Of a stretch of 54,846 nucleotides of DNA, positions 36,060 to 54,846 are shown piece by piece. Source of the DNA: a virus; IMG/VR virus record IMGVR_UViG_3300024319_000016, positions 1 to 54,846 of that record; one strand, written 5' to 3'. How positions within the stretch are numbered: the stretch's first letter is position 1; the number at the start of each line of letters is the position of its first letter. Position numbers and translations under genes: made by a program. The notes beneath the pieces were generated by a model, which saw nothing but the letters and a program-made list of their open reading frames with translations, did no database searches and was not told where the DNA came from.

Positions 36060-36968
36060 ATGGCAACAGGTAATTACGGAATAAAGAGACCAGCAGATGT
36101 TACACCTTCCGATGTGGAGGTTTTTTTACATTATGCTTCAGATAGAGATTCGAATACGGCACCAGTGTTTAAAAAATTAAATGCTAGTGATATTTTGTCA
36201 CCTGTTTTCCATAACGATGTGACAGGTGGTACTCAAGAAACAGAGATGTTAGGGGGTTTATATAACTTAACACTTGAAAGTGGAGAATTTTCAGATTTAG
36301 GGGTGTATAACTTATACATCAGACCAAAAGAAATAAGAACAAACATCACAGATTGTGGTGTGTTATTAACATTACCAAACGTTAAGGGGTTAATATTTGA
36401 TGTATCAAGTATACCATCTGAAGATAGAGGTAAATTTGTAAATAACGGATTGGTTGGGTACAGAATTGAATACTTAGACGATAGTGGTAAAAAGATTAGT
36501 AACTTCTATAGAGTTATAACGAGTAGTTTTTTCTGTGAACCGATTGTTGCTAATTTAACAAATACAAATCAAAAATCTTTAAGATATAGATATACGAGTA
36601 ATCCTACGAGTTTAGTATATTGTACTGTAACTCCGAGTACTGCTCCAACAAATAATCCAAATGAGATTCCATTTATTGGTGAACCAAACCAAAATGTTAT
36701 CTTAACCAATACTTACTTTAACCCTGTACACATGGAGGTTGAGTTAGTAGAACACGACGAACAAACATTAGCATACGCATTGTATGGTAATCAAACTAAG
36801 TCAATTGAAGACGGAATATACACGATTTACGATAAAGAGAATAATATATACAGACAGTATAACTTATTTGAAATACGTGATGAAATTAATAATAAATTAT
36901 ATGAGGTCCGTGAAGATAGAATTGATGACATCGACACGTCCAAAGGTTTTGATAATATAGCGAATTAA
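36060..36968 (+). CDS. Virion structural protein, unknown
   Basis: A 302-residue protein starting MATGNYGIKRPADVTPSDVE. It is beta-rich to about residue 220 and ends in a helical, charged tail (EIRDEINNKLYEVREDRIDD). No catalytic motif or family was recognised. It has its own promoter-like box and its stop overlaps the start of the giant wedge-fibre gene by one base. That coupling suggests a partner of the giant protein, for example an adaptor between wedge and fibre. Confidence 0.55.
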   Translation: MATGNYGIKRPADVTPSDVEVFLHYASDRDSNTAPVFKKLNASDILSPVFHNDVTGGTQETEMLGGLYNLTLESGEFSDLGVYNLYIRPKEIRTNITDCGVLLTLPNVKGLIFDVSSIPSEDRGKFVNNGLVGYRIEYLDDSGKKISNFYRVITSSFFCEPIVANLTNTNQKSLRYRYTSNPTSLVYCTVTPSTAPTNNPNEIPFIGEPNQNVILTNTYFNPVHMEVELVEHDEQTLAYALYGNQTKSIEDGIYTIYDKENNIYRQYNLFEIRDEINNKLYEVREDRIDDIDTSKGFDNIAN

Positions 36969-39900: not shown

Positions 39901-42900
39901 GGTTGAAGGGTTAAGTGCTTTTGAGATTGAAGGGTTTAAAGATGGTGAGTTTTGTTATGATTGTCATAACGAGATAAAGTTAATAACCAATAGTTACTGT
40001 GGAGAATGTTTCGATATAGATTCGTTAGAAATAGGGATGAAAGTTATTATTAATGAGGGTGAAGGACAAGATGACTGTAAAGACAGATGTTTTGTGTTGG
40101 AGAACATTCCGTTTAGTATTGACCAAAGTCAGTTCGGAGGTGTTCACTATGACGTAAATTACCCTGACCATCATATAGATAGTTTAGACCCGAGGGGTAC
40201 TGTATTTTTAACTGAAAAGTTTGAAGTTGTTAAATGTGTGGACTACGATAAAGTATATCATGGGACGTATCAGTATGTCGGTGGGTTAGATACAATAGAC
40301 AGGTTTCCTGTGTATAAACACATAACTGAAGACATTTATCTTTCGTGTTATCCTGATGCGCCTGAATCGGTTAATGGTGACTTTATGTTTACTGAAGGAC
40401 CTAAAGGTTCATATACTCAAATATATGGTAAATTATCAGATAAAAACTTATTAGATTTCACAAACGTATTCACACATTCATTAGAATGGGAAATTGACGA
40501 CTGTATAACAGTTGATGATTTAGAAGAAGACCAAAATGTTATCAGACACCGTTATGCTACGGGCGATAGTATTGGTATTTGCGATAGAGTTAATGACGAT
40601 GGGTTTGATTATGTGAAAATATGGTTACATGGTGGGACTTTTGAAGCTCAAGACGGTACCACTTTACCTTATGATATGTTCTTTGATTGTAAAGAAGATT
40701 TGGTTGAGGGAGAAACTATATGGTATGACGAAGCTGGTGATGTTTTTATTGTTAAGATTAAATCAGGTGAGAATAGGTTGATACATGCGTACGACCAATC
40801 AGGTGCTCCGATACATATATATTTAAAAGAAAGAAACGCCATGTTGGTGGGTCTTGATTTTGAAACGGATTTAGAAACTATCGACGAATATGGTGGTTAC
40901 GGTCAGTATGGTGGATACGGTGGTTACGGTCAGTATAGTGGATACGGAGGTTACGGTGACTATACGTCTTACGGAGGTTACGGTCAGTATGGCGGATACG
41001 GAGGTTATGGAGGATATTTCTGTTACGGAAACGAATATCTATTTTATTCAAATATAAACCCTTATTGTGTTGGTAGACTTGATTATGAGATAAGACCTGA
41101 GTGTCAAGGTTATTTAACGGATACTGAATTTTATAGGGTTAAAGGAGAAACAATACCATACGAAATAACTATTGATGAGGTAATTGTCGGTGAAAATGTT
41201 GAAACAGTTAGGGTTCAGGATATTAATGTCGGTGATTTAATTATCGCTGCGAGTCCTAATTACGGAGAAATGGATTTCTGTGATTACTCGGAGTTTCAAT
41301 ATGGAAATGAAGGTATTGTGTGTAATTACACAAAAAACATTAAAATGGTTCCTGTGATGAGTACATCATGTGGAAGAATATACAAATACATTAATATTAA
41401 TGAAGGTAGGGTTAAAGTAGAATTCCATCATAATATTTTGGTGTTAGAGGATTTAAACAAAACGAATTCGAACGACTTATTAACAACGTGTTATACTGAA
41501 GCACCTACAAAACCAATTGGAACGATTTATAACTTAGACGGGACACCATCACAGGTGTTTTACGATAATGAATATCAGATAATCTCTAAACCGGCTAATG
41601 AGATTGGTATTGGTGATTATATAATAACAACAGAAGAGTGTGGTGTAATTGAAGTAAAGAGTTTGGTTTATGATGATTACTGTGATGAGGGTCTGTTTAA
41701 TGACAAGTATCAAATTAAGTTTGATGAGGATATGTTTGCGTGGTATAGACCGAAAGACGGATATGATACAATATATATCAACGATAAATGTGTTCCTTAT
41801 TGTGAGTTAATATGTTGTGATGAAATAGAGATGTGTATTGACGACATAACTATTGGTGATATTTGTATTGACGATATAAGTTACGTTATTGGTGATGTAC
41901 CAACAACAACTACTTCTACTACAGAAGAGCCAACAACAACGACTAGTACGACTAAGGATAGGACTACTACTACTTCTACGACAGAAGAGCCGATAACAAC
42001 TACTTCTACGACAGAAGACCCGACAACAACTACTTCTACTACAGAAGAGCCAACAACAACGACTAGTACGACTACTGAAAAACCATGTGTTTGTTATAAA
42101 ACAAACCCTTATGATGATAGAATGTTTGTGGTTTACAAAAATTGTGATGGAAATCAGATAACAATAAATAAAACATGTAACTCTACTATCTGTCAGGGGA
42201 TTGAATTTTCAGCTACGGAAATATTGAGTGGACAATCGGAAGTTTTTATTGTTGATTGTGAAGATAAAACAACAACTACTTCTACTACAGAATCTCCGAC
42301 AACAACTACTTCTACGACTAAGGATAGGACTACTACTACTTCTACTACAGAAGCGCCGACAACAACGACTAGTACTACAGAAGATAAGACGACTACCACT
42401 TCTACGACTAAGGATATAACGACAACCACTTCTACAACAGAAGAGCCGACAACGACTACCTCTACGACTAAGGATATGACGACAACAACTAGTACAACGG
42501 AACAACCGACAACAACGACTAGTACAACAGAAGAGCCGACAACGACTACTTCTACAACAGATGTTGAGCCGTTATGTGTTTGTATAGAATTTACACATAT
42601 TTCTACGGGACCTGGAAGACATATTGGGTATTATGACGATTGTGATGGTATTCAGAGAGAGATAATGGTAAACCCATTAGAAAGTGAAAAAGTGTGTGGT
42701 ACCGGGTTAAATATATCAACATCAGATGGTAAATTAATTTACCAAGTAGGTGAGGAATGTGACAAAAATAGAAAATGTCCAAGCGATGAAACGACAACAA
42801 CGACAAGTTTTAGAGAACCTGACGACCCAACAACAACGACTAGTACAACAGAGGATAGGACAACGACTACTTCTACTACAGAAGAGCCAACAACAACTAC

Positions 42901-43327
42901 TTCAACCACTATGGGTGACGGTGGTTCGGGTCCGATTACAACGACAACAACTAGAGGAAATAATGAAACAACTTATTGTGTTAATTTTGATTGGTTAGGT
43001 TCTCAGGTAATACCACAATCCTCAGGTAAGGCATATGCTGATAGTACAACAGTTAGTCAAATAACTGAATTCTATTTATATGATGTCGCTTGTGGAAATG
43101 GTGATTTTGATACATTAGCAAACGCATTAACCACGGGTTATGGTCTTACGGTTAGTAGAGGTAATTCGACGGCTAACTTTACTCTTAATTCGTTGACAAA
43201 CAATAGTCAAATGAACTATTGGACTTTAGGGGTTACTTATAACTCAGGAACAGTAACACAGGCACCCGAAGGGTTACCATGTCATCAACCGAATTACTTC
43301 TGTTTCACACAACCAATACTAAGTTAA
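36968..43327 (+). CDS. Giant wedge-fibre fusion: gpI/gp7-like N-part, Gly-Tyr repeats, mucin-like tracts
   Basis: A 2119-residue protein. Residues about 320-460 resemble gpI/gp7-type wedge proteins (VTYDKINNVPDLLLKNLAGL; then FKSKGTRKPLRFLLSFIGAP). About 870-1300 is Cys-rich and Asp-rich. Residues 1308-1350 are a GGYG/QY repeat. About 1365-1640 is beta-rich, with paired GD motifs (INVGDLIIAA, IGIGDYIITT) and VEFHHNILVL, slightly like a Hint domain. Three mucin-like blocks built on TTTTSTT-x-x units follow (about 1645-1705, 1765-1867, 1939-2002), separated by small Cys-containing modules (each beginning CVC). A C-terminal domain of about 115 residues closes the chain. The position after gp25/gp6 fits a wedge protein fused to a side fibre. 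It probably anchors in the baseplate and projects a Thr-rich stalk. Confidence 0.6.
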   Translation: MANIRFPSNGSGTFSDGLVGGQNTEGNDFTQKNFSEEGTPVVRDTKSFTTSDFSKPISLEDLNSEESIKEVSKLFDQSLKIKFNTEKGSKDLFGSAFLRAKVAVENIANTFPASLRVFKTTTDAQTVDTAYDVVNNLQFNTTTFKIPLRAIRNPLGIEYSNIGLKVFDGQYDSDRNFAKEFTKYVLLFSGVEYKIKKVLLPEDRYNGELSITVHGKPFTGSTQEEFYIKLNDILFEKKFELMDDFEQLLLDRENVPLYEAKFKVPKETSDGNLYFGDEKIKWELSDDFNIVVEGDKFERYLEKLFETCEVIDNYKANLIARFLSTASLQEFDTEGQKVKKIFQLYGRFFDDVKKFIDNIAYMNNVTYDKINNVPDLLLKNLAGLLGLDVITSITDRNIEEYLYKKKDSQFDGLTKGKTPFETDIEIYRRIILNSAYLFKSKGTRKPLRFLLSFIGAPESFVEINEYVYKVINRIDYDKFSEKLDNVIDGEWFESDVDFKTIKVWSEIKEEWLDKSDFQKKYPNVEIDVLGYLENGQLPDGENHGDAYILDKELISVEVQKSGGVYNVDDYPIERVGTSDNSIPKTPTITNDYFFQKGAGWFERTDSHKSVSVLDEERSDLTTSPKTIKTKFEDFTYGEKFYDRYKNFPNFDDGWELKADIDNKKSDSDTNKFILNRKNVDIFLNPGRAVLFDFVRTYQKHSLSYSGVLLNNLTFAQFSEYGFWNGVEVGKGKYGKKYWDLIELFKDYYESGLGKAYDYDLTYAYLNKISTYWIRLVEQFIPATTLWFTGEKVENHNLHRPKFNWEEPCRNDVMSLDLSLAKTLYETLIDSLKKYKNIPDCYERLYRYGNWYLQVKINDKIYQIGGEEWTHFFTSTESDKMGSCNLDNAQPGSPDTCPQYDNPIYMLCDFETYVTCYPDECKDFVTTIVQMLSQISKDIYRDEIADKVSDCDFLCDNDDGLTYVADTVFGSTIKTTSPEVEGLSAFEIEGFKDGEFCYDCHNEIKLITNSYCGECFDIDSLEIGMKVIINEGEGQDDCKDRCFVLENIPFSIDQSQFGGVHYDVNYPDHHIDSLDPRGTVFLTEKFEVVKCVDYDKVYHGTYQYVGGLDTIDRFPVYKHITEDIYLSCYPDAPESVNGDFMFTEGPKGSYTQIYGKLSDKNLLDFTNVFTHSLEWEIDDCITVDDLEEDQNVIRHRYATGDSIGICDRVNDDGFDYVKIWLHGGTFEAQDGTTLPYDMFFDCKEDLVEGETIWYDEAGDVFIVKIKSGENRLIHAYDQSGAPIHIYLKERNAMLVGLDFETDLETIDEYGGYGQYGGYGGYGQYSGYGGYGDYTSYGGYGQYGGYGGYGGYFCYGNEYLFYSNINPYCVGRLDYEIRPECQGYLTDTEFYRVKGETIPYEITIDEVIVGENVETVRVQDINVGDLIIAASPNYGEMDFCDYSEFQYGNEGIVCNYTKNIKMVPVMSTSCGRIYKYININEGRVKVEFHHNILVLEDLNKTNSNDLLTTCYTEAPTKPIGTIYNLDGTPSQVFYDNEYQIISKPANEIGIGDYIITTEECGVIEVKSLVYDDYCDEGLFNDKYQIKFDEDMFAWYRPKDGYDTIYINDKCVPYCELICCDEIEMCIDDITIGDICIDDISYVIGDVPTTTTSTTEEPTTTTSTTKDRTTTTSTTEEPITTTSTTEDPTTTTSTTEEPTTTTSTTTEKPCVCYKTNPYDDRMFVVYKNCDGNQITINKTCNSTICQGIEFSATEILSGQSEVFIVDCEDKTTTTSTTESPTTTTSTTKDRTTTTSTTEAPTTTTSTTEDKTTTTSTTKDITTTTSTTEEPTTTTSTTKDMTTTTSTTEQPTTTTSTTEEPTTTTSTTDVEPLCVCIEFTHISTGPGRHIGYYDDCDGIQREIMVNPLESEKVCGTGLNISTSDGKLIYQVGEECDKNRKCPSDETTTTTSFREPDDPTTTTSTTEDRTTTTSTTEEPTTTTSTTMGDGGSGPITTTTTRGNNETTYCVNFDWLGSQVIPQSSGKAYADSTTVSQITEFYLYDVACGNGDFDTLANALTTGYGLTVSRGNSTANFTLNSLTNNSQMNYWTLGVTYNSGTVTQAPEGLPCHQPNYFCFTQPILS
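40889..41017 (+). repeat. Gly-Tyr repeat region
   Basis: In-frame repeats encoding variations of YGGYGQYGGYG inside the giant wedge-fibre gene. At DNA level, short units such as ggttacggtcagtatggtgg recur. The repeat breaks with a DYTSY segment midway. Confidence 0.85.
41900..42084 (+). repeat. Mucin-like Thr repeat block 1
   Basis: About six 27-nt units each encoding TTTTSTT plus two residues (EE, KD, ED or TE, usually followed by Pro or Arg). Mostly Thr/Ser with a regular charged pair. Confidence 0.9.
42262..42570 (+). repeat. Mucin-like Thr repeat block 2
   Basis: The longest block, about ten 27-nt TTTTSTT-x-x units, flanked on both sides by small Cys-containing modules. Confidence 0.9.
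42790..42975 (+). repeat. Mucin-like Thr repeat block 3
   Basis: Irregular start (TTTTTSFREPDD), then three TTTTSTT units and an ITTTTTRG end, leading into the C-terminal domain. Confidence 0.85.
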
Positions 43328-43371
43328 ATAAAAATATAAAGACAATAAGTAAAAGATTTAATAGAATAAAT

Positions 43372-43379
43372 ATATTTAT
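43372..43379 (+). promoter_or_regulatory. TATTTATA promoter-like box
   Basis: Exact TATTTATA, 13 nt before the ATG at 43393. Confidence 0.5.
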
Positions 43380-43392
43380 ATAATAAAAGAAA

Positions 43393-44352
43393 ATGGGAAA
43401 TATTAACGATACTAATAACAGGTTAGCCACAGACACTCCAGATACTACTACAACTACTACCACAGGTGGAGTTTCGGTTACGTTTAGTAGTCCTAGTAAT
43501 GGACCGTGTAATTTAACATTTACCCCTGATTGTGGTGGGGTAACGACTAATAATAATATGTCTATGGCTGCTACTGACACGCCTGATACACCTACCGTGA
43601 CAATACCGGGTATTAATTTCCCTTACACTTTTTATCCTTCAGAACATGGAGTTGATGATATTTTTGGTACATATACGTTTAATTGTGGTGGTTGTGAATA
43701 TATAAGAAACATAGAGAGAGTGTGTAATGATAATGATATATCATATACAGTATTAGGTTCTTCTGTTACTACAACGACAACAGAGGATGTTACAACAACT
43801 AGTACGACTGAAGATGTTACAACGACTAGTACAACTGAAGATGTAACAACGACTAGTACAACTGAAGATGTAACAACGACTAGTACGACTGAAGATGTAA
43901 CAACGACTAGTACGACTGAAGATGTAACAACGACTACAACCACAGAGGATGTAACAACTACAACCACTCAAAGACAATATAGTACCTTCTTCAAAAGTAC
44001 GGTAAAAAGTGAGTACGGTTGTGACCAAATCGTTGATGAAAATGGAGACCCAGGTGGTTTCTGTCACCCTTCATCTGGATATCTGGTTGAGACTAGATTC
44101 TATGTGGAAGGGGCTAATAGAACTATTCATAGTAATTTACAAGACCAAAACGTATATACAGATTCGAATTTAACAAACCCACTACCAGACGGTTATTATT
44201 ATTGTAGTGCCAATTCTGAAGAGGCGGGCGGAGTTACGTATACTGCTCTTCCGGGTTTAACTCATAAGGGTATACAGGTAGAAAATGGTGTTGCTGATTG
44301 TTCAACCCACAATTGTAGTGATGATTGTGGTGGTGGAAACAACGAACTGTAG
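43393..44352 (+). CDS. Mucin-like fibre protein A
   Basis: A 319-residue protein. An N-terminal Thr-rich arm leads to a module (SNGPCNLTFTPDCGG, then IPGINFPYTFYPSEHGVDDI and FNCGGCEYI, about residues 38-105) that is repeated in the next gene, so the two are tandem paralogues. Residues 131-192 are seven 9-residue units EDVTTTSTT or EDVTTTTTT. The C-terminal about 125 residues form a Cys-containing domain (YGCDQIVDENGDPGG; ending CSDDCGGGNNEL). No signal peptide is present, consistent with a virion part instead of a secreted one. It is likely an accessory fibre or adhesin with a Thr-rich stalk that could be O-glycosylated by the downstream enzymes. Confidence 0.6.
   Translation: MGNINDTNNRLATDTPDTTTTTTTGGVSVTFSSPSNGPCNLTFTPDCGGVTTNNNMSMAATDTPDTPTVTIPGINFPYTFYPSEHGVDDIFGTYTFNCGGCEYIRNIERVCNDNDISYTVLGSSVTTTTTEDVTTTSTTEDVTTTSTTEDVTTTSTTEDVTTTSTTEDVTTTSTTEDVTTTTTTEDVTTTTTQRQYSTFFKSTVKSEYGCDQIVDENGDPGGFCHPSSGYLVETRFYVEGANRTIHSNLQDQNVYTDSNLTNPLPDGYYYCSANSEEAGGVTYTALPGLTHKGIQVENGVADCSTHNCSDDCGGGNNEL
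43783..43968 (+). repeat. 27-nt tandem repeat encoding EDVTTTSTT
   Basis: Seven near-identical units with the pattern gaagatgtaacaacgact plus a Thr/Ser remainder. High DNA identity between units suggests recent expansion or homogenisation. Confidence 0.9.
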
Positions 44353-44391
44353 TGATGGTTAAGATTATTAAAAATTTAAAAAATACAAGAC

Positions 44392-45750
44392 ATGTCTAAT
44401 ATAAACGAAAAAGAAAACAATAACGTTAGTATCAATAATACGTCTATTGATAGTAATGGGAATGGTGATTTAGCTGCTACTGATACTACAACAGTTAATG
44501 GGAATGGTAGTTTAGACGCTACTGATACTACAACAGTTAATGGGAATGGTAGTTTAGACGCTACTGATACTACTACAGTACAACCTTCAACTCAAACGGT
44601 TAGGTTTGAACGAATGAGTAATGGTAAATGTGATTTAACATTTACCCCAACGACTACAACGTCTACAACATCTACGACTAATAATACGTCTAAGGCCGCT
44701 ACGGATACGACTGATACGACAACAACACAACCTAACAGTGTTAGTATCCCCAACGTGTCTTTTCCTTACGAGTTTGACCCTTTAGACCATGGGTTTGATA
44801 ATATCTATGGGGAATATAAATTTGACTGTTGTGGGTGTCCATACCTTATTACCATTGAGGTCCCGGTTACAACGACTAGTACCACTGAAGAGGTTACAAC
44901 AACTACTACTGAAGAGGTTACGACAACGACAACTAGTAAAGACACTGACCCAATAACGACCACAACTACTACTGAAGAGGTTACAACAACGACAACGACT
45001 GAAGATGTGTGTGATAACTGTACTACGGTTAGGGTTCGTAGAAATACGTTATTGTATGGTGTTAGTTTTGATTATATAGATTGTGATAATGATAGTCAGT
45101 CTTATACCTTCCCAACTAAGGTTAGTGTGGTTGATTTATGTGTATGTACAGGAAGTATACCAAGTAGTGATGACTATACTATTGAATTTATCGAAGAATG
45201 TACAACAGGATTACCGGTATTAACCTGTGATTTATTATCGTACACAGTTAATGATGGGGAGAATGGAGAACTAGTTAGTTTTAATAATGGAAGCGGATTA
45301 TTTATACCTGCTCAGGTGACACCTAGTCAATATGTTTTAGGTGTTGGAACCTATACTGTTAGTGTTACAGTACCAAATGGATATAGTAACGCAGGTGAAA
45401 CTTTAGAATGTGTGAGTGATGAGGTTATTGTATCTCAAGGTGGTGGTGATACCACGACAACATCGACAAAGGGTTCATCTGATGCGTTTTGTGCTAAGGT
45501 AACATATGGGCCTAACAGTCCCAATAAACTACAAACGTCACTTGGTGGTGAGATACATGAATTTTTAATCTCGATGCAGATTACATATGAAAATGAAGAC
45601 GGTGGTGGATTCTTTAACAAATGTACTGACACGGGGACGTTCTTCGTAGTAGAAGGGAATAGTCCAAGAGTTATTAGGGAGTCTGATGAAATTGATGTTA
45701 CGTATAACGCTGATGATTTATGTGATGGTGACTACCATTGTGATAGATAA
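44392..45750 (+). CDS. Mucin-like fibre protein B (paralogue of A)
   Basis: A 452-residue protein. The N-terminus carries tandem 14-residue repeats (ATDTTTVNGNGSLD). Then comes the module shared with the preceding gene: SNGKCDLTFTP, IPNVSFPYEFDPLDHGFDNI, FDCCGCPYL. Thr-rich spacers (TTTSTTEEVTTTTTEEVTT) follow, then a Cys module resembling those between the mucin blocks of the giant protein (Y-x-DCD... VDLCVC). Two further beta-rich domains follow, one of them Gly/Asn-rich with NGYSNAGETLECVSDEVIVS. It is the last structural gene before the glycosyltransferase island. A fibre or adhesin role is inferred. Confidence 0.6.
   Translation: MSNINEKENNNVSINNTSIDSNGNGDLAATDTTTVNGNGSLDATDTTTVNGNGSLDATDTTTVQPSTQTVRFERMSNGKCDLTFTPTTTTSTTSTTNNTSKAATDTTDTTTTQPNSVSIPNVSFPYEFDPLDHGFDNIYGEYKFDCCGCPYLITIEVPVTTTSTTEEVTTTTTEEVTTTTTSKDTDPITTTTTTEEVTTTTTTEDVCDNCTTVRVRRNTLLYGVSFDYIDCDNDSQSYTFPTKVSVVDLCVCTGSIPSSDDYTIEFIEECTTGLPVLTCDLLSYTVNDGENGELVSFNNGSGLFIPAQVTPSQYVLGVGTYTVSVTVPNGYSNAGETLECVSDEVIVSQGGGDTTTTSTKGSSDAFCAKVTYGPNSPNKLQTSLGGEIHEFLISMQITYENEDGGGFFNKCTDTGTFFVVEGNSPRVIRESDEIDVTYNADDLCDGDYHCDR
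44476..44580 (+). repeat. 42-nt tandem repeat encoding ATDTTTVNGNGSLD
   Basis: Two full 42-nt copies (44476-44517, 44518-44559) nearly identical in DNA, then a partial third copy. Confidence 0.9.
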
Positions 45751-45753
45751 TAA

Positions 45754-45761
45754 TATAAATA
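45754..45761 (+). promoter_or_regulatory. TATAAATA box before glycosyltransferase island
   Basis: Exact match to the T4 late-promoter octamer TATAAATA, 11 nt before the ATG at 45773 and just after the previous stop. In such AT-rich sequence it could be chance; it is unusual because other genes here have the reverse-complement form. Confidence 0.3.
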
Positions 45762-45772
45762 AAAAATAATAT

Positions 45773-46705
45773 ATGGTGACCATATGTTCACAACCCGATA
45801 ATATATATTTTCATTGGCAAAACCTAATACAATTCTATAACTTTAAAAAGTTAGGAATTTTAAAAGACCATAGGGCGGTTTTTCTAGTTAGTCAAGGAAA
45901 ATCTCCTTCTAAGTTTGTTTTAGAATTTAAAAAACAATATCCTAAAAACGTTTTCATATATATGGACGATAGGGTACAAAAACACTACATCCCAACAATT
46001 AAAATACACGGGGTTGTTAAGTACTTAACGACTGACAGAAAACAACAAGATTTAATGTTGATAGATTCGGACATTATTCTTAACGAAAAAATCGATTATA
46101 GTAAATTCACAGAAAATAATACGGTATATTGTAGTAACACAAAAGGGTATTTAGGTTATCAATATCTAAAGACTAAGGGGGATGAAATTGTTACAGACAT
46201 GTGTCACTTTATGGGGATTACTTTAGATGATGTAAAAGACCAAAATGATAACTCAGGTGGTGCTCAATTATATTATAAAGGTGTTGATGGGTTATTAGAG
46301 TATTTTAAAGAGGTTGAGGACAAAGCCCCTAAATTATATGATTTGATGGTTAAACACCCAACGTATAATGATTATAAACCAACAATACAAGCATGGACAT
46401 CAGAGATGTGGGCAGTGTTATGGTTACTATGGAAACGAGACGTTAAGACTGAAATACATTCCGAATTAGACTTCAGATGGGCTACTGATGACATTTCTTT
46501 ATGGAAGACAAATAAGATACTACATATGGCTGGTGTAACCGCAGGTATGAAAGACGTTTTCTTTAAGGGTGGTTTTATCACAAAGGCACCATTTAATGCT
46601 AATTTTGATTATATTAGAGAGAATTCTATCACTAATATCTATATAGAAGAAATGGAAGAATTAAAGAAAGACCAATCTTTCAAAAACTTAATAGAACTCC
46701 TTTAA
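45773..46705 (+). CDS. Putative GT-A glycosyltransferase 1
   Basis: A 310-residue protein. A DxD metal-site candidate, D98-S-D100, lies in LMLIDSDIILNE. Further on there is a DNSGGAQLYYKG segment (about residues 163-174) like the GGxQ region of GT8-type enzymes, and LHMAG near residue 250. These features fit a GT-A fold that uses a nucleotide-sugar donor. The acceptor is not known. It opens a seven-gene run of glycosyltransferase-like genes immediately after the Thr-rich fibre genes. I infer that it modifies virion proteins, but DNA or host glycans are possible acceptors. Confidence 0.55.
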   Translation: MVTICSQPDNIYFHWQNLIQFYNFKKLGILKDHRAVFLVSQGKSPSKFVLEFKKQYPKNVFIYMDDRVQKHYIPTIKIHGVVKYLTTDRKQQDLMLIDSDIILNEKIDYSKFTENNTVYCSNTKGYLGYQYLKTKGDEIVTDMCHFMGITLDDVKDQNDNSGGAQLYYKGVDGLLEYFKEVEDKAPKLYDLMVKHPTYNDYKPTIQAWTSEMWAVLWLLWKRDVKTEIHSELDFRWATDDISLWKTNKILHMAGVTAGMKDVFFKGGFITKAPFNANFDYIRENSITNIYIEEMEELKKDQSFKNLIELL

Positions 46706-46757
46706 TTTTTATTCACTTTATTTTTTAATTTAATACTTTTACGTATACAATAGAGCT

Positions 46758-47789
46758 ATGCGAAGACGTAAAAGTAAAATATTTGACATATATATAACCA
46801 CAGGTGCTGGTAACACGGTCGGTGGTGGTTCAGACGTATGGGTTAATAATTGGTTAAAGTTAATACCTAAACATTTGGATATTAAACCAATTCTACTTAT
46901 TGATAATTATAGATTCCAAGGGTTTGAAGAGGACTCAATACCAATAGAGCACATTTTCTATAACGAAAGACCTGATGAATCTAAAAGATTATTACAGGAA
47001 TGTCGACACATTCACTTCTTACATAATCATTACACTAAAAGACCTCACTTATGGAAGTATAGGTTTAAGTTTAAGAGTATTGCGGTTCACGCATACGCCA
47101 GAGAGATAGTTAATTCTTATAAGGAGTTAGGGTTCTCAAGAGATTCAGTCCCTTTTTTATGGAATGTTGAATGGCAAGACGAATTAATCCGTGAGTGTGA
47201 AACTAAATATTGGGTCGGTTCACAAAAGGGTTTAGTTAATGATATTTTTAACGACTGTATAACAATACCAAATTATTATGAGTTTATATGGAATAAGGAA
47301 TATTTTCATAGTAATGTGGTTGGTTTTGCTGCAAGGGCAGAAACAAGAAAAGCGATTCATTTCTTGGAGAATGTTAGGTCCAATGCTTTTACATCAAGTA
47401 ATGGTGTTAAGATATGGGAGAAAAACACTAAAATGAAGTTCAACAATACTAAAATCATTGAGTATAATCCAAACTTAACAGATGAATATTACAATAGTAG
47501 TCTGTTCGGTATATTCCATGGTGCTTATGTTAAAGAACCATTTGGGTATTCAATTCTCCAAGCCGTTGATGCGGGTAAATTACCTATAATATCTAAAGGG
47601 TGGTGTCCTGAGTTTAACTATCCGTATCGAGCGTCGAGTAAGGAAGAGTTTGAAAATATGGTTAAGTTAATACAAAACACAAACAAAGAAACAAGAAAAA
47701 ATATCTTTAATTCGGCAAAAGAATTTTTAAAGAAATTTGACAATAAAGACCATTGGGTTGAAAGAATGAAAACAATATATAATGAATAG
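46758..47789 (+). CDS. Putative GT-B glycosyltransferase (GT4-like) 2
   Basis: A 343-residue protein. The N-terminal domain has a Gly-rich loop near GGGSDVWVNNWLKLIP (about residues 22-37) as in GT-B enzymes. The C-terminal domain has VVGFAARAETRKAIHFLENV (about residues 193-212) and EPFGYSILQAVDAGKLPIIS from residue 260, the GT4 EX7E region. The first Glu is present (E260), while the second position carries Gln (Q268). A retaining GT4 activity is therefore likely but altered. It overlaps the next gene by 8 nt. It is the only GT-B member of the island; the others look like GT-A. Confidence 0.7.
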   Translation: MRRRKSKIFDIYITTGAGNTVGGGSDVWVNNWLKLIPKHLDIKPILLIDNYRFQGFEEDSIPIEHIFYNERPDESKRLLQECRHIHFLHNHYTKRPHLWKYRFKFKSIAVHAYAREIVNSYKELGFSRDSVPFLWNVEWQDELIRECETKYWVGSQKGLVNDIFNDCITIPNYYEFIWNKEYFHSNVVGFAARAETRKAIHFLENVRSNAFTSSNGVKIWEKNTKMKFNNTKIIEYNPNLTDEYYNSSLFGIFHGAYVKEPFGYSILQAVDAGKLPIISKGWCPEFNYPYRASSKEEFENMVKLIQNTNKETRKNIFNSAKEFLKKFDNKDHWVERMKTIYNE

Positions 47790-48735
47790 AAAATTAATAG
47801 TTTCACGAATGTGGACAAAACGAGGCATACAACAGTACTTCTCATTACTCCAAATATCTAAAGAATTTTGGGACTTTGAAATAGAAGCACATATTCTAAT
47901 TGACGATTGGACACACGATGATGATTGGACTAAGGAGATAGAAAAACTTAATAACCCACATAGAGAAGGGTTTCCGATGAGTGTGGAGTTTTATACCAAA
48001 GAAGAATTAAAACAATGGTACCATAGTAATAATATTATAGATAAGAGTGTCTTTGATAACATGAAAGGATTTTTACATATTTATCATCTTCTGTTGTATT
48101 TTTATTTATATGTTGAAAAAGGTATCGATTACTTAGTGTCTTATGATGATGATATCGTGTTTAATAAAAAGGTTAGTCCTGAGTTAAATGAAATCGATGG
48201 TTTAATTGCTAATAAGACACCATTTGTTATTGACGAAGAGTACTTCCCTATGTCTGACAAAAGTATGTTTGTTGGGTTATCTAATTATTTTAACCGTGAT
48301 TTAACACCTGATTATTATAGAAATAATGTAAGGGGTGTTGGTGCTAATGCTGGTTTTATGGGTATAGAAACCTCATCGATATTTAGTTCTTTTAAAGATA
48401 ATTTTATGGGGTTATTATCTTTGTTTGATTTCAAATCGCCAAACTTAAAATCTATTGATGAACCTTACCATTATACTGATAAGGTTTTATTCGATACTCA
48501 AGAACAAAGTTTTATGAGTATTATGTTACACTGTTTTGCGACAAAAGATTTATTTAGGTTAGGTGGAGCGTTAGGGTATTTCTTTGACACTCCAATACAA
48601 GAGGCGGTAAATAAGTCTAAATTAATACATTTCACAGGAGACAGAAAATACGACCCACAATTCCCAAAGATTATTATAGATTTTCTAAAGAAACACGGTC
48701 ATAACAATATCACACCAGATTGGTTTTATTATTAA
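47782..48735 (+). CDS. Putative GT8-like glycosyltransferase 3
   Basis: A 317-residue protein. The acidic motif D122-D-D124 (LVSYDDDIVFN) fits the metal-binding site. NAGFMGIE (about residues 190-197) and EQSFMSIML precede HFTGDRKYDP at 283-292, which resembles the GT8 H-F-x-G-x-x-K motif. Together these support a retaining GT8-type enzyme (glycogenin/LgtC class). The gene overlaps the previous one, so expression is coupled. Acceptor unknown. Confidence 0.7.
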   Translation: MNRKLIVSRMWTKRGIQQYFSLLQISKEFWDFEIEAHILIDDWTHDDDWTKEIEKLNNPHREGFPMSVEFYTKEELKQWYHSNNIIDKSVFDNMKGFLHIYHLLLYFYLYVEKGIDYLVSYDDDIVFNKKVSPELNEIDGLIANKTPFVIDEEYFPMSDKSMFVGLSNYFNRDLTPDYYRNNVRGVGANAGFMGIETSSIFSSFKDNFMGLLSLFDFKSPNLKSIDEPYHYTDKVLFDTQEQSFMSIMLHCFATKDLFRLGGALGYFFDTPIQEAVNKSKLIHFTGDRKYDPQFPKIIIDFLKKHGHNNITPDWFYY

Positions 48736-48741
48736 ATAATT

Positions 48742-49851
48742 ATGTTGGAACCGTTATACAATAAAGAAATATTAGAAGAAGGTATTATTGAAGCATTAAG
48801 ACACATTGATGCTTTTGATGATATTGAAAAGGCGAAAGAATGTCTAAGAACCGCACTATCACCAAATGAAAAATGGGCGATTAATTTACTAAACTCGAGT
48901 GTTAGTGATAATATGAAATTCCACACAATGAATGGGTATAATTTACCGTTTTTTGAGAATGACAGTAATATACCAAAAAGAGCGAAAAATGCTAGATTAT
49001 GTGTCGTATATCAAGTATGGGGTAATCATAACTATTTAAAGTTTTTATACCTATCAATTTTATCACAATTGGTGTATACGGATATTTTAGATTTTGATAT
49101 TAAAATATTTTTAGGAAAAGGATTTGTTAATGATGTAGGTGCGTCATTAATCGACCGATTATTACCTGAAGGGTCTATTATACCTGTTAATGATGGGTTA
49201 TCTTTAAAATATGGATTAACTTCCCATCCACATTTACAGAACTACGACGTAGTTTCTGTTGTTGATACAGACGCATTTTGGTACCACCCTAAAGGTGAGA
49301 AAACTAACGTATACCAAAAAATGTTAGATTTGTATGACTCAGGTTTTGATGGTCTTATTATGGCACCAGACCCTGACTTGGCAAGTTCAGTGTTTTGGCA
49401 AAGAAGAGATACGTTAAACACCAATATACCGGCTGAACATTATAAAAACTATTTCTACAGAAATGCGAATACGGATGAAAAAAGACTTACTGATTTTGTG
49501 GACCATGATAAGAATTGGTTTCTATCGTGTCTATTTGTGTACGGTAAAAATCAATTTAGAGAACCAGGATATGGTAAATACGCATTGACCTGTTTATATG
49601 ATGAATTACTTTGTGATGAAACCGTTTGGATGATGTGGGGTCTCGGTCACGATTACGAAATCGAGAATATGAATAATACAGGGTTTTTACGATGGGTTGG
49701 TGCGAATGATTTCGATAGGTATTGGAGCAATGAGAAAAATAGTGAAGATGTTTTGTCTTATATTCATCCTGTACAGGGAGACCATTGTTATAATATGAGT
49801 CTAATTAAGTTATATGATAAAATAGTAGAAGACTATAAATTAAGTAGATAA
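48742..49851 (+). CDS. Putative GT-A glycosyltransferase 4
   Basis: A 369-residue protein with a helical N-terminal extension of about 80 residues, then a Rossmann-like start (LCVVYQVWGNHNYLKFLYLS) and the DxD motif D175-T-D177 in SVVDTDAFWY. A later CDETVWMMWGLGHDYE and IHPVQGDH (near residue 335) are plausible acceptor and metal sites. The stop overlaps the next ATG by one base. The overall pattern fits a GT-A enzyme; no specific CAZy family is assigned. Confidence 0.6.
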   Translation: MLEPLYNKEILEEGIIEALRHIDAFDDIEKAKECLRTALSPNEKWAINLLNSSVSDNMKFHTMNGYNLPFFENDSNIPKRAKNARLCVVYQVWGNHNYLKFLYLSILSQLVYTDILDFDIKIFLGKGFVNDVGASLIDRLLPEGSIIPVNDGLSLKYGLTSHPHLQNYDVVSVVDTDAFWYHPKGEKTNVYQKMLDLYDSGFDGLIMAPDPDLASSVFWQRRDTLNTNIPAEHYKNYFYRNANTDEKRLTDFVDHDKNWFLSCLFVYGKNQFREPGYGKYALTCLYDELLCDETVWMMWGLGHDYEIENMNNTGFLRWVGANDFDRYWSNEKNSEDVLSYIHPVQGDHCYNMSLIKLYDKIVEDYKLSR

Positions 49852-50774
49852 TGAAAAGACCTGATTATACTGTGATGTATGCTTTACACGTCATGCCAGA
49901 AGAAATACAAGATGTTGGTAGGATAATAAAAGACTTTGAAATATCGACAAAAGAAAACTCAAATGTGGGGGTTACCTTATATATTGATTTGAATTTTTCA
50001 GATGTCTATTATGATTGGTCAAATTCTAAAATGACTAAAGAAACTTTTTATAATTTATTTCAAAACTTCATAACACATTCTCGAAAGAACTTAAATATAA
50101 TACACAATGTTAGAGATATGGGGCATTGGGGAGTTAATTCAACTAGAAGAAACGTGATTAATGAATACAAAGATACGTTTGATTATATTAGTTTTATTGA
50201 TTGTGACATATTTTTTGACCCAACGGCGATTCAATATGTGTATAAAACATTAGAAAAAGAGATGGGAGAATTTATTATATTCTCTGGTTTATTGCCTAAG
50301 ATGTGGAACGAACACTTTGATGGTCTCACACATAAAAAATTTAAGAATGTGACTGACAGGTCATTTCCTTTTAAGATTAACCCTTTGAGTGTTTATGGGT
50401 TTCACCAAACTCAGAAAAATGAGGTTGGATATACTTCTGACATTATGATTGGGGGTGGATGGTTTAACGTTTTTTCTACAACGATTTTCGATTACGTAAC
50501 CATACCGACAGAATTAGGGGTTTATGGTATTGATGACCATTGGATTCAAGAATGTTGTCGTTTTCTTAATAAATCAGGGTGGGATATTAAACAATGTTAT
50601 AATAATAAATTTTTAATATTAGAGAACCACGGTCGTAAGTTTAATATACCAGAACCTTTTATAGTTAAAAAAATGGTAAATGGGGGTAAATTTGAATATG
50701 AAAAAAACGCAAAACAAAATTACGAAAGTTTATTCAGTGAATATAAACAAAGTATTATAAGTAAGTATTTCTAA
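49851..50774 (+). CDS. Putative GT2-like glycosyltransferase 5
   Basis: A 307-residue protein with an early ALHVMPEEIQDVGRIIKDFE helix, the DxD motif D117-C-D119 in SFIDCDIFFDP, a GGGWFNVFSTTIFDYV segment (about residues 201-216), and GIDDHWIQECCRF (about 224-236). The last resembles the acceptor-side ED/DD region of inverting GT2 enzymes. A final ENHGRKFN (near 260) could provide a metal His. It is preceded and followed by other transferases at near-zero spacing. Confidence 0.6.
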   Translation: MKRPDYTVMYALHVMPEEIQDVGRIIKDFEISTKENSNVGVTLYIDLNFSDVYYDWSNSKMTKETFYNLFQNFITHSRKNLNIIHNVRDMGHWGVNSTRRNVINEYKDTFDYISFIDCDIFFDPTAIQYVYKTLEKEMGEFIIFSGLLPKMWNEHFDGLTHKKFKNVTDRSFPFKINPLSVYGFHQTQKNEVGYTSDIMIGGGWFNVFSTTIFDYVTIPTELGVYGIDDHWIQECCRFLNKSGWDIKQCYNNKFLILENHGRKFNIPEPFIVKKMVNGGKFEYEKNAKQNYESLFSEYKQSIISKYF

Positions 50775-50776
50775 CG

Positions 50777-52279
50777 ATGAAGTTATTTTTTACTTTTTAC
50801 AGTAAAGAAAGTATTCCTAAGTTACACCACTTTTTCAAACATTACAGAAATTTAGGGGTAACTAATTTTTATGCGATATATCATGCGTATGAAGAACACA
50901 CTAAAGATGTTTTAGATTATGTGATGGAAAATGCTATGGTTGTTAAGATATGGGACGGGGTCTTTAACGAACATATTAAAGTAAAACACATAAATGATGC
51001 GAGGTTAAAATTCTCAAGTTATGGTGAATGGTCGTTTACTGTTGATTGTGATGAATTTATAGATATTAGTGTTAATGACTTAAATAAAGTGGTTGATAGT
51101 GATGCGAACTATGTAAAGTTTAGTTTGATTGATAGAGTTTCTAAACCATCACTTAAAGAGGTTACGATAGAAGAAGACATAGAAATAACGTTTCCCTATT
51201 ATTCTTTTATTACATATAGTTTATTAGAGGGGGCGATATCTAAAGTGCCTCTATCTGTTCGTGAAGTCATTATTGGTTTAGGTTATCACGATGTCATTGG
51301 AGAACAAGAACAAGTTGTTAAGTTAATAAAACACCCTTTAAATGGTTACGTAAATCACTTTAAATGGGATAGTGATATTATCTATACTATACACGATAGA
51401 GTGACTAATAGATTAATAGATGACGGAAGTGCTGATGATTATAAAGAAGAATGTAATGTTGCGTTGTCTTTGGATTATGATGGAATAATTACCTACGACA
51501 AGCCTTTAGGTATGAAGTTATTGTTTATTGTTTGGTCCCTTCAGGATTATAATATGTTAAAACAATTCTTTATACATTATAGAACCTTAGGTGTTACCAA
51601 ATTTTATTGTATTTTTCATACTTACGGTATGGAAGATAATTTTATTTACGATTTTGTTAAACAAAATGCTGAGATTGTACATCATTGGGATGAGAAATAT
51701 ACGACAGAATGGGAATGTAAACTAAAGAATAAATATAAGAGAGAAATTTGTGATGATGAGAACGAATGGGTGTGGTGTGTTGATGCTGACGAATTTGTTG
51801 ATGTCTCACAAGATTTTGTGAGGGAAGTGATAAGTAGTGACTCAAATTATGTTAACGGGTGGATGATAGATAGGTTTTCTGAAGATGGGTTAATAGTCCC
51901 ATTGGATGATAACATGTTTAAACAGTTCCCAATTAGGACTTACTATACACGATTTAAGTTAAATGGTTCTGCGTCTAAAATTCCACTAACGCGTTCTTAT
52001 GTTATTATTGGTGTGGGTCATCATGTCGTATTAAACGAAATGTATGATTTTAATTTAAAAGATGAGAGAGTCTTAATACCTTATAATGATAATGAGGATA
52101 CTTGGATTGAAGTTGCTCATATTAAATGGCATTATCAATTATTAGAGGAGATATATAATAAATTCACTAAAACAATGAATTTATGTCAATACTCGGCAAG
52201 AGAGTTAGGTATTTTTGTGTTGGATTATTGTTATAAGGAAAAATCAATAACTGAAATTATTAAAGATGTGAGAATATGA
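50777..52279 (+). CDS. Tandem-duplicated glycosyltransferase 6 (GT2/GT92-like, two domains)
   Basis: A 500-residue protein made of two similar halves offset by about 245 residues. Corresponding motifs: FFKHYRNLGVTNFYAIYHAY and FFIHYRTLGVTKFYCIFHTY; VDCDEFIDIS (D90-D92) and VDADEFVDVS (D336-D338); VIIGLGYHDV and VIIGVGHHVV; HFKW and HIKWHY. The FFxHYR..GV..FY start plus D-x-D-E-F is typical of the Glyco_tranf_2_4/GT92-like group. Both halves retain the acidic motif, so both could be active, giving an enzyme that adds two sugars or makes a polymer. The stop overlaps the next ATG (ATGA). Confidence 0.75.
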   Translation: MKLFFTFYSKESIPKLHHFFKHYRNLGVTNFYAIYHAYEEHTKDVLDYVMENAMVVKIWDGVFNEHIKVKHINDARLKFSSYGEWSFTVDCDEFIDISVNDLNKVVDSDANYVKFSLIDRVSKPSLKEVTIEEDIEITFPYYSFITYSLLEGAISKVPLSVREVIIGLGYHDVIGEQEQVVKLIKHPLNGYVNHFKWDSDIIYTIHDRVTNRLIDDGSADDYKEECNVALSLDYDGIITYDKPLGMKLLFIVWSLQDYNMLKQFFIHYRTLGVTKFYCIFHTYGMEDNFIYDFVKQNAEIVHHWDEKYTTEWECKLKNKYKREICDDENEWVWCVDADEFVDVSQDFVREVISSDSNYVNGWMIDRFSEDGLIVPLDDNMFKQFPIRTYYTRFKLNGSASKIPLTRSYVIIGVGHHVVLNEMYDFNLKDERVLIPYNDNEDTWIEVAHIKWHYQLLEEIYNKFTKTMNLCQYSARELGIFVLDYCYKEKSITEIIKDVRI

Positions 52280-53727
52280 TAGGTATACATTCGGTTTTTA
52301 GTAATGAGAATAGGGGGTTTATTTATAACGTAAATACTGACATTAGTACGGTTGAGTTATATACGTGGGTTTATTCAATATTAACGTGGAAAAGAGATGG
52401 ACATCCATTATACCTATATTGTGATGATAAAATTAATGAATTTGTTACCAAGTACGGTTTTGGTCATTTATATGATGAGATAAGGGTTAGAAATTATGAT
52501 AATGATATTCACGAATGTTTTTGGTCGTACAATAAAATACGAGTAATAGAAGAATTTGGGGAACCTGTTTGTTTATTTGATGTCGATACGTTTTTTAGAA
52601 ACACTGAATTTACTAAGTTACAATATGATATGATAACATATCATTATGAATTATGGGATTCAGAATTAAAAGATAAGATGTTTAACCGTAAAGATAGTTT
52701 AAAAAACTTAAGTTTCTATCAACCTGTGGATGACAGTGTTGAGATTGTTAATGGTAGTTTATTGATTTTTAATAGTTATGATTTAAAAACAGAATTTTTA
52801 CGTAACGCTAAAGAGGTTGTTGACACTATAAAAACAATAGAATATGAAAGTCAATTTGAATATGATTCGTATACTATTTTTATGGAACAGGTTAATCTGG
52901 GTTATTTAAATAATAAGTATAACTGTGGTAAAGTGTCTAAAAGAAATGAATGGGGGAACTATAGGTTTAATGGTGACGAACCATTTGTACATTTAGGTCA
53001 TGACAAAGAGCGATTGGCTCACGGTAATCCACAGACGAAAGAAAGATACGTCCATATTATTAAGGAAAAGATTATTGAGTTAGGTTATCCTGAATTTGGA
53101 AAGTTATTCTCCCTAACAACGTTTGAAGGAGATAAGGACCAAAACTCTTTAATACCTCAAAGGGTTAAACCAACCGCCAGAAATATGGGGGATAAGATAA
53201 GTTCTGAATTATTTACTAAGTGGTATGGTGATAATGTAAAGACACTTAAAGATAGTCGATTTGATATTGCAATATGGGGTTCTATATTGGGTAATGATAT
53301 TGATTTAATTGTATCAACATCTGAAGGGGTTAATATAAGTGGTAAAGAATTAGAAGAGTTTATGTTATTATTACATAGGTCAGGTGATTATATAGGTATT
53401 ACTGTTGAGGTGTTATACACCAATAATATTAACTATTTCAGAGAATTTAGAATGGAAAATTCCCAAAAAGTAAAAGAAGATATTCTTATTGGGTTTGTTT
53501 CTGAATCGGATTATGAACCAAACGGTGAGTTAAGAACGGTGGGTAAATTAAAGTTTTATGAAGGACCGTTTAACGATGCTTACTATAAATCAACGAATAA
53601 ACATGATGAAGTTCTATTTATAGATTCGGTAAAAGATATAAAAAACAACGATGGGTATACACATTTTTCATCAGAGGTTTATAATACCATATATGAAAGG
53701 TTTGGAATTTTCAGTATGTTAGGCTGA
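52276..53727 (+). CDS. Putative glycosyltransferase 7 fused to a nucleotidyltransferase-like domain
   Basis: A 483-residue protein. The N-terminal about 280 residues look like a GT-A protein with D102-V-D104 (LFDVDTFFRNTEF), VNGSLLIFNSYDL and VHLGHDKE near 237. From about 300 a second domain shows IAIWGSILGNDIDLIVS (GS at 335-336, D341-I-D343) and a later strand with E378 (ITVEVLYT), which is suggestive of a minimal nucleotidyltransferase fold, though the GS-to-DxD spacing is short. The two parts could act together, but the second function is tentative. It is the last gene of the island. Confidence 0.5.
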   Translation: MIGIHSVFSNENRGFIYNVNTDISTVELYTWVYSILTWKRDGHPLYLYCDDKINEFVTKYGFGHLYDEIRVRNYDNDIHECFWSYNKIRVIEEFGEPVCLFDVDTFFRNTEFTKLQYDMITYHYELWDSELKDKMFNRKDSLKNLSFYQPVDDSVEIVNGSLLIFNSYDLKTEFLRNAKEVVDTIKTIEYESQFEYDSYTIFMEQVNLGYLNNKYNCGKVSKRNEWGNYRFNGDEPFVHLGHDKERLAHGNPQTKERYVHIIKEKIIELGYPEFGKLFSLTTFEGDKDQNSLIPQRVKPTARNMGDKISSELFTKWYGDNVKTLKDSRFDIAIWGSILGNDIDLIVSTSEGVNISGKELEEFMLLLHRSGDYIGITVEVLYTNNINYFREFRMENSQKVKEDILIGFVSESDYEPNGELRTVGKLKFYEGPFNDAYYKSTNKHDEVLFIDSVKDIKNNDGYTHFSSEVYNTIYERFGIFSMLG

Positions 53728-53743
53728 AAAAATATTAACTGAA

Positions 53744-53751
53744 TATTTATA
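53744..53751 (+). promoter_or_regulatory. TATTTATA promoter-like box
   Basis: Exact TATTTATA, 14 nt before the ATG at 53766. Confidence 0.5.
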
Positions 53752-53765
53752 ATAAAAGAATATAG

Positions 53766-54846
53766 ATGGCATATCTAAAGAAAAATATAGAAACATTAAT
53801 TGATATTAAGATTACAGACAAAGGTAGAGAGTTAATTTCTACTGGTAAGTTCTGTAACATTGAGTATTTTCAGGTTGGTGATTCTGAATTTGACTATAAA
53901 AACGAAGACATCTTTAAGAGAGATGGGAAGAAGGATACACAGATAGTATTTAGAGCTAAAGATAAAGATTCGGATGTTAAATATCCGATACCTGTCGGTA
54001 GTGAAAATCCTGATGACCCATTAAGTTGTAATACTTATGGTAGGGTTTACCCGAATCATCAAGAAGAGGTTGTAAGTAAGAAAGTAGAGTTTTTAGGTGT
54101 GACGCAAAATCAAAATATTAAAACACCGTTAGGTATATGTGTACCATTGATGAACTTTGATGGGACAGATACTTTGGTGACTAACAAGTTAATATCTTGT
54201 GAATATATTCTAATCAAATTTCCGCAAGACCCATCAAACGTTTTAGATACTGATGGTCCTTGTTTATGGTATAAAGTCGTTTCGTTTATTGATGAAAACA
54301 CGATTCAATTAGATAGACCTTTACCTAACTATTCTTTTGTTACTGACCTTAGTAAAGAGGCCACATTATTTGAGTACGCAAAAAGAGAGACTACAGAATA
54401 TTTAGATTTCAATGTTGCGTGGACTGAGGAGTTCGCTGGTTTTGATGTTAACTTACCAAGAACATTTGCTGAAGGGTCTAAATATCTATCAGCTAAAGAG
54501 ATGTTCGGTTATACGTCATATGAGCATGGAGACAATTATTATTCATGTAACCCTGAACCAACAACGACCACTACAACGACAATATGTCCTCCTGAGTTTT
54601 TATCATTGGACCTAACAAGAGAACCTACAGTACAATTATTTAGTAATGTTGAAGTAAGTGGAGAGAGTTGGGATTATTGTTCTTCTTATGTTGATTCTTA
54701 CGGTAAAGAGGTTTATGTGTATCCTGACGAACAAAAATTTATTGGTGTAATACATTATACTAAATGGGAAGACTATTATGGAACAGGTGAATGGTGGAAA
54801 GAATTTGACAGTGAATTCGAATTGAACCTACCAACGTTAATGTACC
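53766..54846 (+). CDS. Fibre-like structural protein, truncated by window end
   Basis: An ORF of at least 360 codons that is still open at the last base, so only its N-terminal part is visible. It begins MAYLKKNIETLIDIKITDKG. A beta-rich N-terminal region of about 255 residues, partly resembling baseplate/fibre-attachment proteins (ITDKGRELISTGKFCNIEYF), is followed by a poly-Thr linker (PTTTTTTT, about residues 265-272) and then a new domain with TICPPEFLSLDL. The linker links it to the mucin-like proteins upstream of the glycosyltransferases. Its own promoter-like box precedes it. A tail-fibre role is probable. Confidence 0.6.
   Translation, partial: MAYLKKNIETLIDIKITDKGRELISTGKFCNIEYFQVGDSEFDYKNEDIFKRDGKKDTQIVFRAKDKDSDVKYPIPVGSENPDDPLSCNTYGRVYPNHQEEVVSKKVEFLGVTQNQNIKTPLGICVPLMNFDGTDTLVTNKLISCEYILIKFPQDPSNVLDTDGPCLWYKVVSFIDENTIQLDRPLPNYSFVTDLSKEATLFEYAKRETTEYLDFNVAWTEEFAGFDVNLPRTFAEGSKYLSAKEMFGYTSYEHGDNYYSCNPEPTTTTTTTICPPEFLSLDLTREPTVQLFSNVEVSGESWDYCSSYVDSYGKEVYVYPDEQKFIGVIHYTKWEDYYGTGEWWKEFDSEFELNLPTLMY

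Follow-up and report, generated by a model that had tools for sequence, protein, structure and literature searches.

A predicted GT-A enzyme family, phrog_4417, coupled to poly-threonine tracts in phage virion proteins

Analysis of the window, the whole stretch of 54,846 nucleotides considered here, revealed seven consecutive + strand ORFs (45773 to 53727, genes being named by their first position) directly after three genes that carry Thr/Ser tracts. We consider it probable (about 0.8) that this region is a phage virion-glycosylation island, in which the 45773 protein glycosylates the tracts and the next enzymes probably lengthen or diversify the sugar. The initial annotation had connected enzymes and tracts by adjacency only; for 45773 the connection is now strongly supported by repeated adjacency in other genomes and by comparison of homologous loci with and without the enzyme, whereas for the other six it is tentative. 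One of two hallmarks of a phage virion protein-glycosylation system is found here, namely linkage between a glycosyltransferase gene and a virion protein that offers a Thr/Ser acceptor region; the other would be sugar on the virion protein itself.

The window is a 54.8-kb fragment represented by the uncultured virus record IMGVR_UViG_3300024319_000016. Its genes for a gp19-like tail tube protein, gp25, the gp6 baseplate wedge protein, UvsX, DnaB helicase and ribonucleotide reductase place the virus among the T4-like myoviruses. The Thr-tract genes and the enzyme island come after the baseplate genes, which are homologues of gp25 and gp6, and from this position we infer that 36968, 43393 and 44392 are structural genes. 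The features are as follows.

36968..43327, + strand: tail-region protein of 2119 aa in which the unit TTTTSTT-xxx builds three Thr/Ser arrays (ORF and repeat analysis; syntenic in relatives downstream of baseplate genes).
43393..44352, + strand: 319-aa Thr-tract protein with a 27-bp (TTTSTTEDV) array at about 43768-43968 (ORF and repeat analysis).
44392..45750, + strand: paralogue of 43393, 452 aa long, whose Thr tracts are shorter and irregular (ORF and tract reading).
45773..46705, + strand: phrog_4417 protein with a glycogenin/GT8-like predicted GT-A fold, proposed poly-Thr O-glycosyltransferase (PHROG profile, AlphaFold, Foldseek, neighbourhood and with/without tests).
46758..47789, + strand: GT-B/GT4-like protein (weak match to Pfam Glycos_transf_1, E 0.09; 36% identical homologue in the huge phage LR756508).
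47782..48735, + strand: putative GT-A protein with a DDD motif conserved in the relative L003 (motif).
48742..49851, + strand: putative glycosyltransferase with a DTD motif (motif; LR756508 is the sole phage record with homologues).
49851..50774, + strand: putative GT2-like protein with a DCD motif (weak match to Pfam GT2, E 0.065; distant homologue in LR756508).
50777..52279, + strand: two-domain glycosyltransferase, tandem Glyco_tranf_2_4 / GT92-like, with DxDE in each half (Pfam PF13704).
52276..53727, + strand: N-terminal DVD-containing glycosyltransferase-like domain and C-terminal domain with a nucleotidyltransferase-like GS..DID motif, both assigned from motif reading.
53766..54845, + strand: next tail-region gene after the enzymes, with a TTTTTTT linker, cut by the contig end (ORF; 703 aa in the relative L002).

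The Thr/Ser arrays of 36968 are located at about 41900-42076, 42269-42561 and 42830-42910, the first two with a 30-bp period. The three consecutive tract genes of the initial annotation are therefore present, but the nine-residue unit ascribed to all of them is found in 43393 only; the unit has ten residues in 36968 and is irregular in 44392, where the tracts lie at 44650-44691, 44869-44910, 44956-45000 and 45451-45480. The pattern TTTT[ST]TT occurs 18 times in the 36968 product, as compared to 0 times in 1000 residue shuffles. Within a tract the third codon positions are mixed (ACA, ACT, ACG and ACC), which indicates that the amino-acid pattern is what is kept. The poly-Thr linker described for the gene after the island was recovered in 53766, and homologues of this gene possess poly-Thr in relatives that carry the glycosyltransferase (L221-L224) and none in relatives that do not. 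Additionally, a Gly/Tyr-rich repeat (GYGQYGGYGGYG) is found in the 2119-aa protein at 40888-41029, upstream of the Thr arrays.

The 45773 protein matches phrog_4417, a family without annotated function, over its full length (E 1.1e-67), residues 1-298 of its 310 aligning with positions 1-292 of the 293 in the profile. An AlphaFold model built with 49 relatives (pLDDT 97.1, pTM 0.92) is a compact, soluble GT-A domain without extra segment. The closest solved structures found by Foldseek are glycogenins (E 1.4e-6), followed by other GT-A enzymes; with a TM score of about 0.5 and ca. 10% identity to glycogenin/GT8 structures, the likeness is a moderate one of fold. The DxD motif (D98, D100) is invariant in 49 family sequences, and on predicted fold and DxD motif 45773 belongs to the GT-A enzymes, so that the fold check proposed earlier was borne out for this protein. 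Its likeness to GT8 is one of fold and not of sequence: none of the 49 family members matches Pfam GT8 at E 0.05. The match to the hydroxyproline O-arabinosyltransferase family (HPAT, GT95-like; PF23452) falls below the family cut-off (E 0.033; 14.0 bits, cut-off 23.9) and recurs in only one of the 49 members. Scans of Pfam, NCBIfam and PHROG provided no functional name, and no Pfam glycosyltransferase family scored above its cut-off. A sequence search of the PDB with 45773 gave chance matches only (TAL repeats).

Relatives of 45773 are present in 74 phage records, and scans of bacterial genomes and viral contigs added 37 and 80 loci, respectively. In Enterococcus phage phiFL1A and Lactococcus phages 1706 and CHPC971 a gene annotated as major tail protein comes immediately, or almost immediately, before the phrog_4417 gene; the latter has the same neighbour in staphylococcal Sextaecvirus phages, Lactobacillus phages PLE3, iLp84 and Semele, and Arcanobacterium phage TPWB06, and it follows a capsid gene in other phages. 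Thr runs occur in at least one nearby gene at all 15 isolate loci (seven of seven first, then eight more). When 8 kb around phrog_4417 are considered, a poly-Thr gene is present at all of these isolate loci, 36 of the 37 prophage loci, 12 of 13 near viral loci and 64 of 70 distant viral loci, counts which are not independent because the distant loci include near-duplicates. The poly-Thr genes peak at offsets -1, +1, +2 and +3 from phrog_4417, with capsid and connector genes at -5/-6, and are about absent beyond seven genes.

In prophages of Bacillales, poly-Thr tags form the C-termini of major tail, major capsid and connector proteins, and at 30 of the 37 prophage loci such tags occur on more than one protein (two or three), often with identical last residues. 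The tail and capsid proteins of Lactococcus phage 1706 likewise share the identical C-terminal tag TTTTTTTTTHHD, and several isolates are similar. As poly-Thr acceptor peptides for 45773 or for the orf14 protein of phage 1706 we would propose TTTTSTTEEPTTTTSTT and GVTTTTTTTTTTHHD. In Sextaecvirus-type phages (L019:3117-3930, L022:3164-3926, L409 and L410) a short Thr run closes the major tail protein, and a far longer poly-Thr stretch is encoded in a different frame by an ORF that overlaps or adjoins its gene; this layout suggests a programmed frameshift in the ACN run that would yield a minor, heavily Thr-tailed isoform.

These neighbourhoods bear on a proposal in which the enzymes modify host surface glycans, in serotype conversion or superinfection exclusion, and share an operon with the tract genes by chance. 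Serotype-converting glycosyltransferases encoded by phages are known and provide a precedent, but the model of 45773 shows just a compact, soluble GT-A domain, and surface modification would not explain why phrog_4417 goes together with tags borne by capsid, connector and tail proteins. We consider this proposal very improbable.

Comparison of homologous loci that differ in the enzyme supports glycosylation of the tracts by 45773. A search of 399 Bacillales genomes was done with an alignment of the major tail protein core, from which the tail had been removed, and with an enzyme alignment, and the region around each of 57 major tail protein genes was read for enzyme and tail. The poly-Thr tail is present on five of the five homologous proteins encoded with the enzyme and on none of the 52 encoded without it; the core alignment was made from enzyme-positive loci and could bias detection toward their relatives, and the enzyme-negative matches include 14 at high scores (about 190-330 bits). 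A tree was built from 38 tail-protein cores; in its best version the enzyme is gained or lost at least eight times, four of these changes being forced by well-supported branches, and the tract follows the enzyme at all eight without disagreement. The four strictly independent, well-supported pairs are all concordant, a number too small for a significant sign test alone. Relatives of the window phage were found by their gp6 match, and longer stretches were then taken to reach the island. Pure runs of six or more Thr (T6+) between the homologues of 36968 and 53766 occur in eight of eight relatives with the enzyme, the window included, as compared to none of seven without it, four of which are partial stretches.

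The coupling is one-way: tracts without the enzyme are common and the enzyme without tracts is rare. Among 59 randomly met viral loci that code for long poly-Thr, phrog_4417 is immediately adjacent in eight and not found in the stretch examined in 51, two more records having it elsewhere; the Pfam families listed for the neighbours of the remaining loci include no glycosyltransferase domain. The notion that any Thr tract implies a glycosyltransferase was rejected on the count of 51 loci. The initial annotation had named tracts without glycosyltransferases, or the reverse, as the pattern that would speak against it if usual, and this pattern exists in the first direction only; the expected co-occurrence in related genomes holds among the relatives of the window phage and does not extend to tracts at large. 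Long poly-Thr proteins are also frequent in environmental viral contigs (L289-L368), mostly without a recognisable glycosyltransferase nearby. A phrog_4417 relative in an Arachidicoccus MAG (L058:9995-10855) is part of a RiPP-like locus with double-glycine leader peptides and a peptidase/ABC-type protein and without poly-Thr; this locus counts against the island reading and hints at peptide acceptors in general and possibly at peptide glycosylation.

A further proposal is a T4-like glycosylation of modified DNA bases by the enzymes, with the Thr tracts as plain flexible linkers. Phage glycosyltransferases that act on DNA are well known, the window phage is T4-like and, as described above, many Thr tracts are found without a phrog_4417 enzyme. 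Against this, phrog_4417 genes reside in structural clusters beside tail and capsid genes, small siphophages included, and poly-Thr tags track phrog_4417 across otherwise homologous tail proteins; furthermore, Pfam and PHROG scans of most other genes of the window, itself an incomplete contig, gave no base-hydroxymethylation gene. DNA glycosylation by 45773 is unlikely, and we give the proposal as a whole little credence.

The case for the six further enzymes differs from that for 45773. All seven ORFs of the island had been annotated as glycosyltransferase-like; the ORFs are consecutive as described, and independent evidence for glycosyltransferases was obtained for 45773, 50777 and, weakly, 46758, so that four of the seven are candidates only. 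The 50777 protein is a two-domain enzyme that matches PF13704 in two stretches, one in each half (E 8.5e-15; 55.5 bits, cut-off 27.5); the match of 49851 to GT2 is weak. The GT-B, GT4-like label of 46758 corresponds to a similarly weak match. The 47782, 48742 and 52276 proteins possess DxD-type motifs but gave no match to a glycosyltransferase family in Pfam, NCBIfam and PHROG scans. In the L003 copy of 52276 the N-terminal DxD is lost and the C-terminal nucleotidyltransferase-like GS..DID motif is retained. Profile comparison of 45773 with 47782, 48742 and 49851 detected no homology, and the island is therefore no mere expansion of one gene.

Outside the phage group of the window, the only homologues found of the six further enzymes are distant ones in one huge phage, and these enzymes have no tie to tracts elsewhere. 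It is accordingly conceivable, and we hold it to be a serious if less favoured possibility, that only 45773 acts on the tracts and that the other six form a separate pathway with another target, such as further proteins of the tail, bases of the phage DNA or sugars on the host surface. LR756508, a 484-kb uncultured huge phage, encodes relatives of the window gp6, 46758 and 49851 together with a Gly_transf_sug enzyme at LR756508.1 103000-150000 (L288), and the 47 kb searched in this tail region contain neither phrog_4417 nor poly-Thr; matches to 48742 are found at three places elsewhere in LR756508.1, including about 473.6 kb. The 46758, 49851 and 48742 enzymes may therefore have other targets. 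The relatives L014 and L098 carry the 45773 homologue alone at the same position, without the other six; the seven-gene island seems to have been elaborated from such a one-enzyme arrangement. Opposed to a separate pathway is the contiguity of all seven genes between two tract-bearing genes and their joint retention in L003, with 36-79% identity per gene. An extension of the 45773 glycan by the six further enzymes is put forward as a proposal.

Returning to the virion-glycosylation island, the tracts and the tight coupling of phrog_4417 to poly-Thr virion proteins are observed and the fold of 45773 is predicted; what we infer is the choice of acceptor, the identity of the sugar, the order in which the enzymes act, what the six further enzymes do and how the phage benefits. 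As judged from these sequence comparisons, 45773 very probably O-glycosylates the Thr tracts. In the proposed mechanism this soluble GT-A, GT8-like enzyme would take a host nucleotide sugar and, acting in the cytoplasm, add the first sugar to Thr/Ser residues in the tracts of freshly made tail proteins 36968, 43393, 44392 and 53766, either ahead of assembly or in its course. All or part of the enzymes encoded next (the GT4-like 46758, the GT2-like 49851, the tandem GT2/GT92-like 50777 and others) would probably lengthen or diversify this sugar. The glycosylated tracts could form stiff, hydrated, mucin-like stalks around the baseplate or distal tail, and in prophages the result might be sugar-coated tubes and capsids. 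As to benefit, the sugar may shield the phage from proteases or from being recognised, or the stalks may set the spacing of its receptor-binding parts.

The occurrence of phrog_4417 beside Thr-rich virion proteins in many unrelated viruses points to a widespread, undescribed viral sugar-coating route. We think it fairly likely that phrog_4417 is an unrecognised, widespread family of phage poly-Thr O-glycosyltransferases, which would recognise a portable C-terminal or internal T6+ tag that has been added time and again to virion proteins of unrelated kinds (major tail, major capsid, connector and tail fibre), and that the window represents this system at its most complex, where as many as six additional enzymes would assemble an intricate glycan on the mucin-like stalks. 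If so, cultured Lactococcus, Lactobacillus, Enterococcus and Staphylococcus phages, Bacillales prophages and aquatic T4-like phages would share an enzyme-plus-tag module that is recognisable from sequence, and virion glycosylation would become predictable and directly testable in laboratory phages. Such a short poly-Thr tag, paired with a small and soluble enzyme, might also be of use as a tool for glycosylating proteins in bacteria.

Similar to glycogenin and other GT8 enzymes, 45773 combines a GT-A fold with a DxD motif, and glycogenins are among its best PDB matches; the acceptor of glycogenin is its own Tyr, whereas the predicted acceptors of 45773 are Thr/Ser tracts of another protein. 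HPAT is a protein O-glycosyltransferase, to which 45773 is connected by the weak, sub-cut-off match given above. Mucin-type O-glycosylation also places dense sugar on Thr/Ser/Pro-rich tandem repeats, a likeness by analogy and not by demonstrated homology; that system belongs to the eukaryotic secretory pathway, which is absent here, and the phage enzyme would be cytosolic. In the open-access literature (subscription papers and preprints being outside the scope) we found no description of the phrog_4417 family, the poly-Thr tag or their pairing. According to the account of Freeman et al. 2023 in PMC12619734, the capsid and tail-tube subunits of mycobacteriophages bear glycans at their C-termini, and phage-encoded glycosyltransferases are involved. 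As far as that account goes, the system proposed here is of the same kind, with phage-encoded glycosyltransferases and virion-protein C-termini; that work concerns mycobacteriophages, and in the system proposed here the enzyme is of phrog_4417 and the acceptor would be a poly-Thr tag or tract. Phage virion glycosylation itself is thus already known from mycobacteriophages, and it is the phrog_4417 enzyme family and the poly-Thr tag that appear undescribed.
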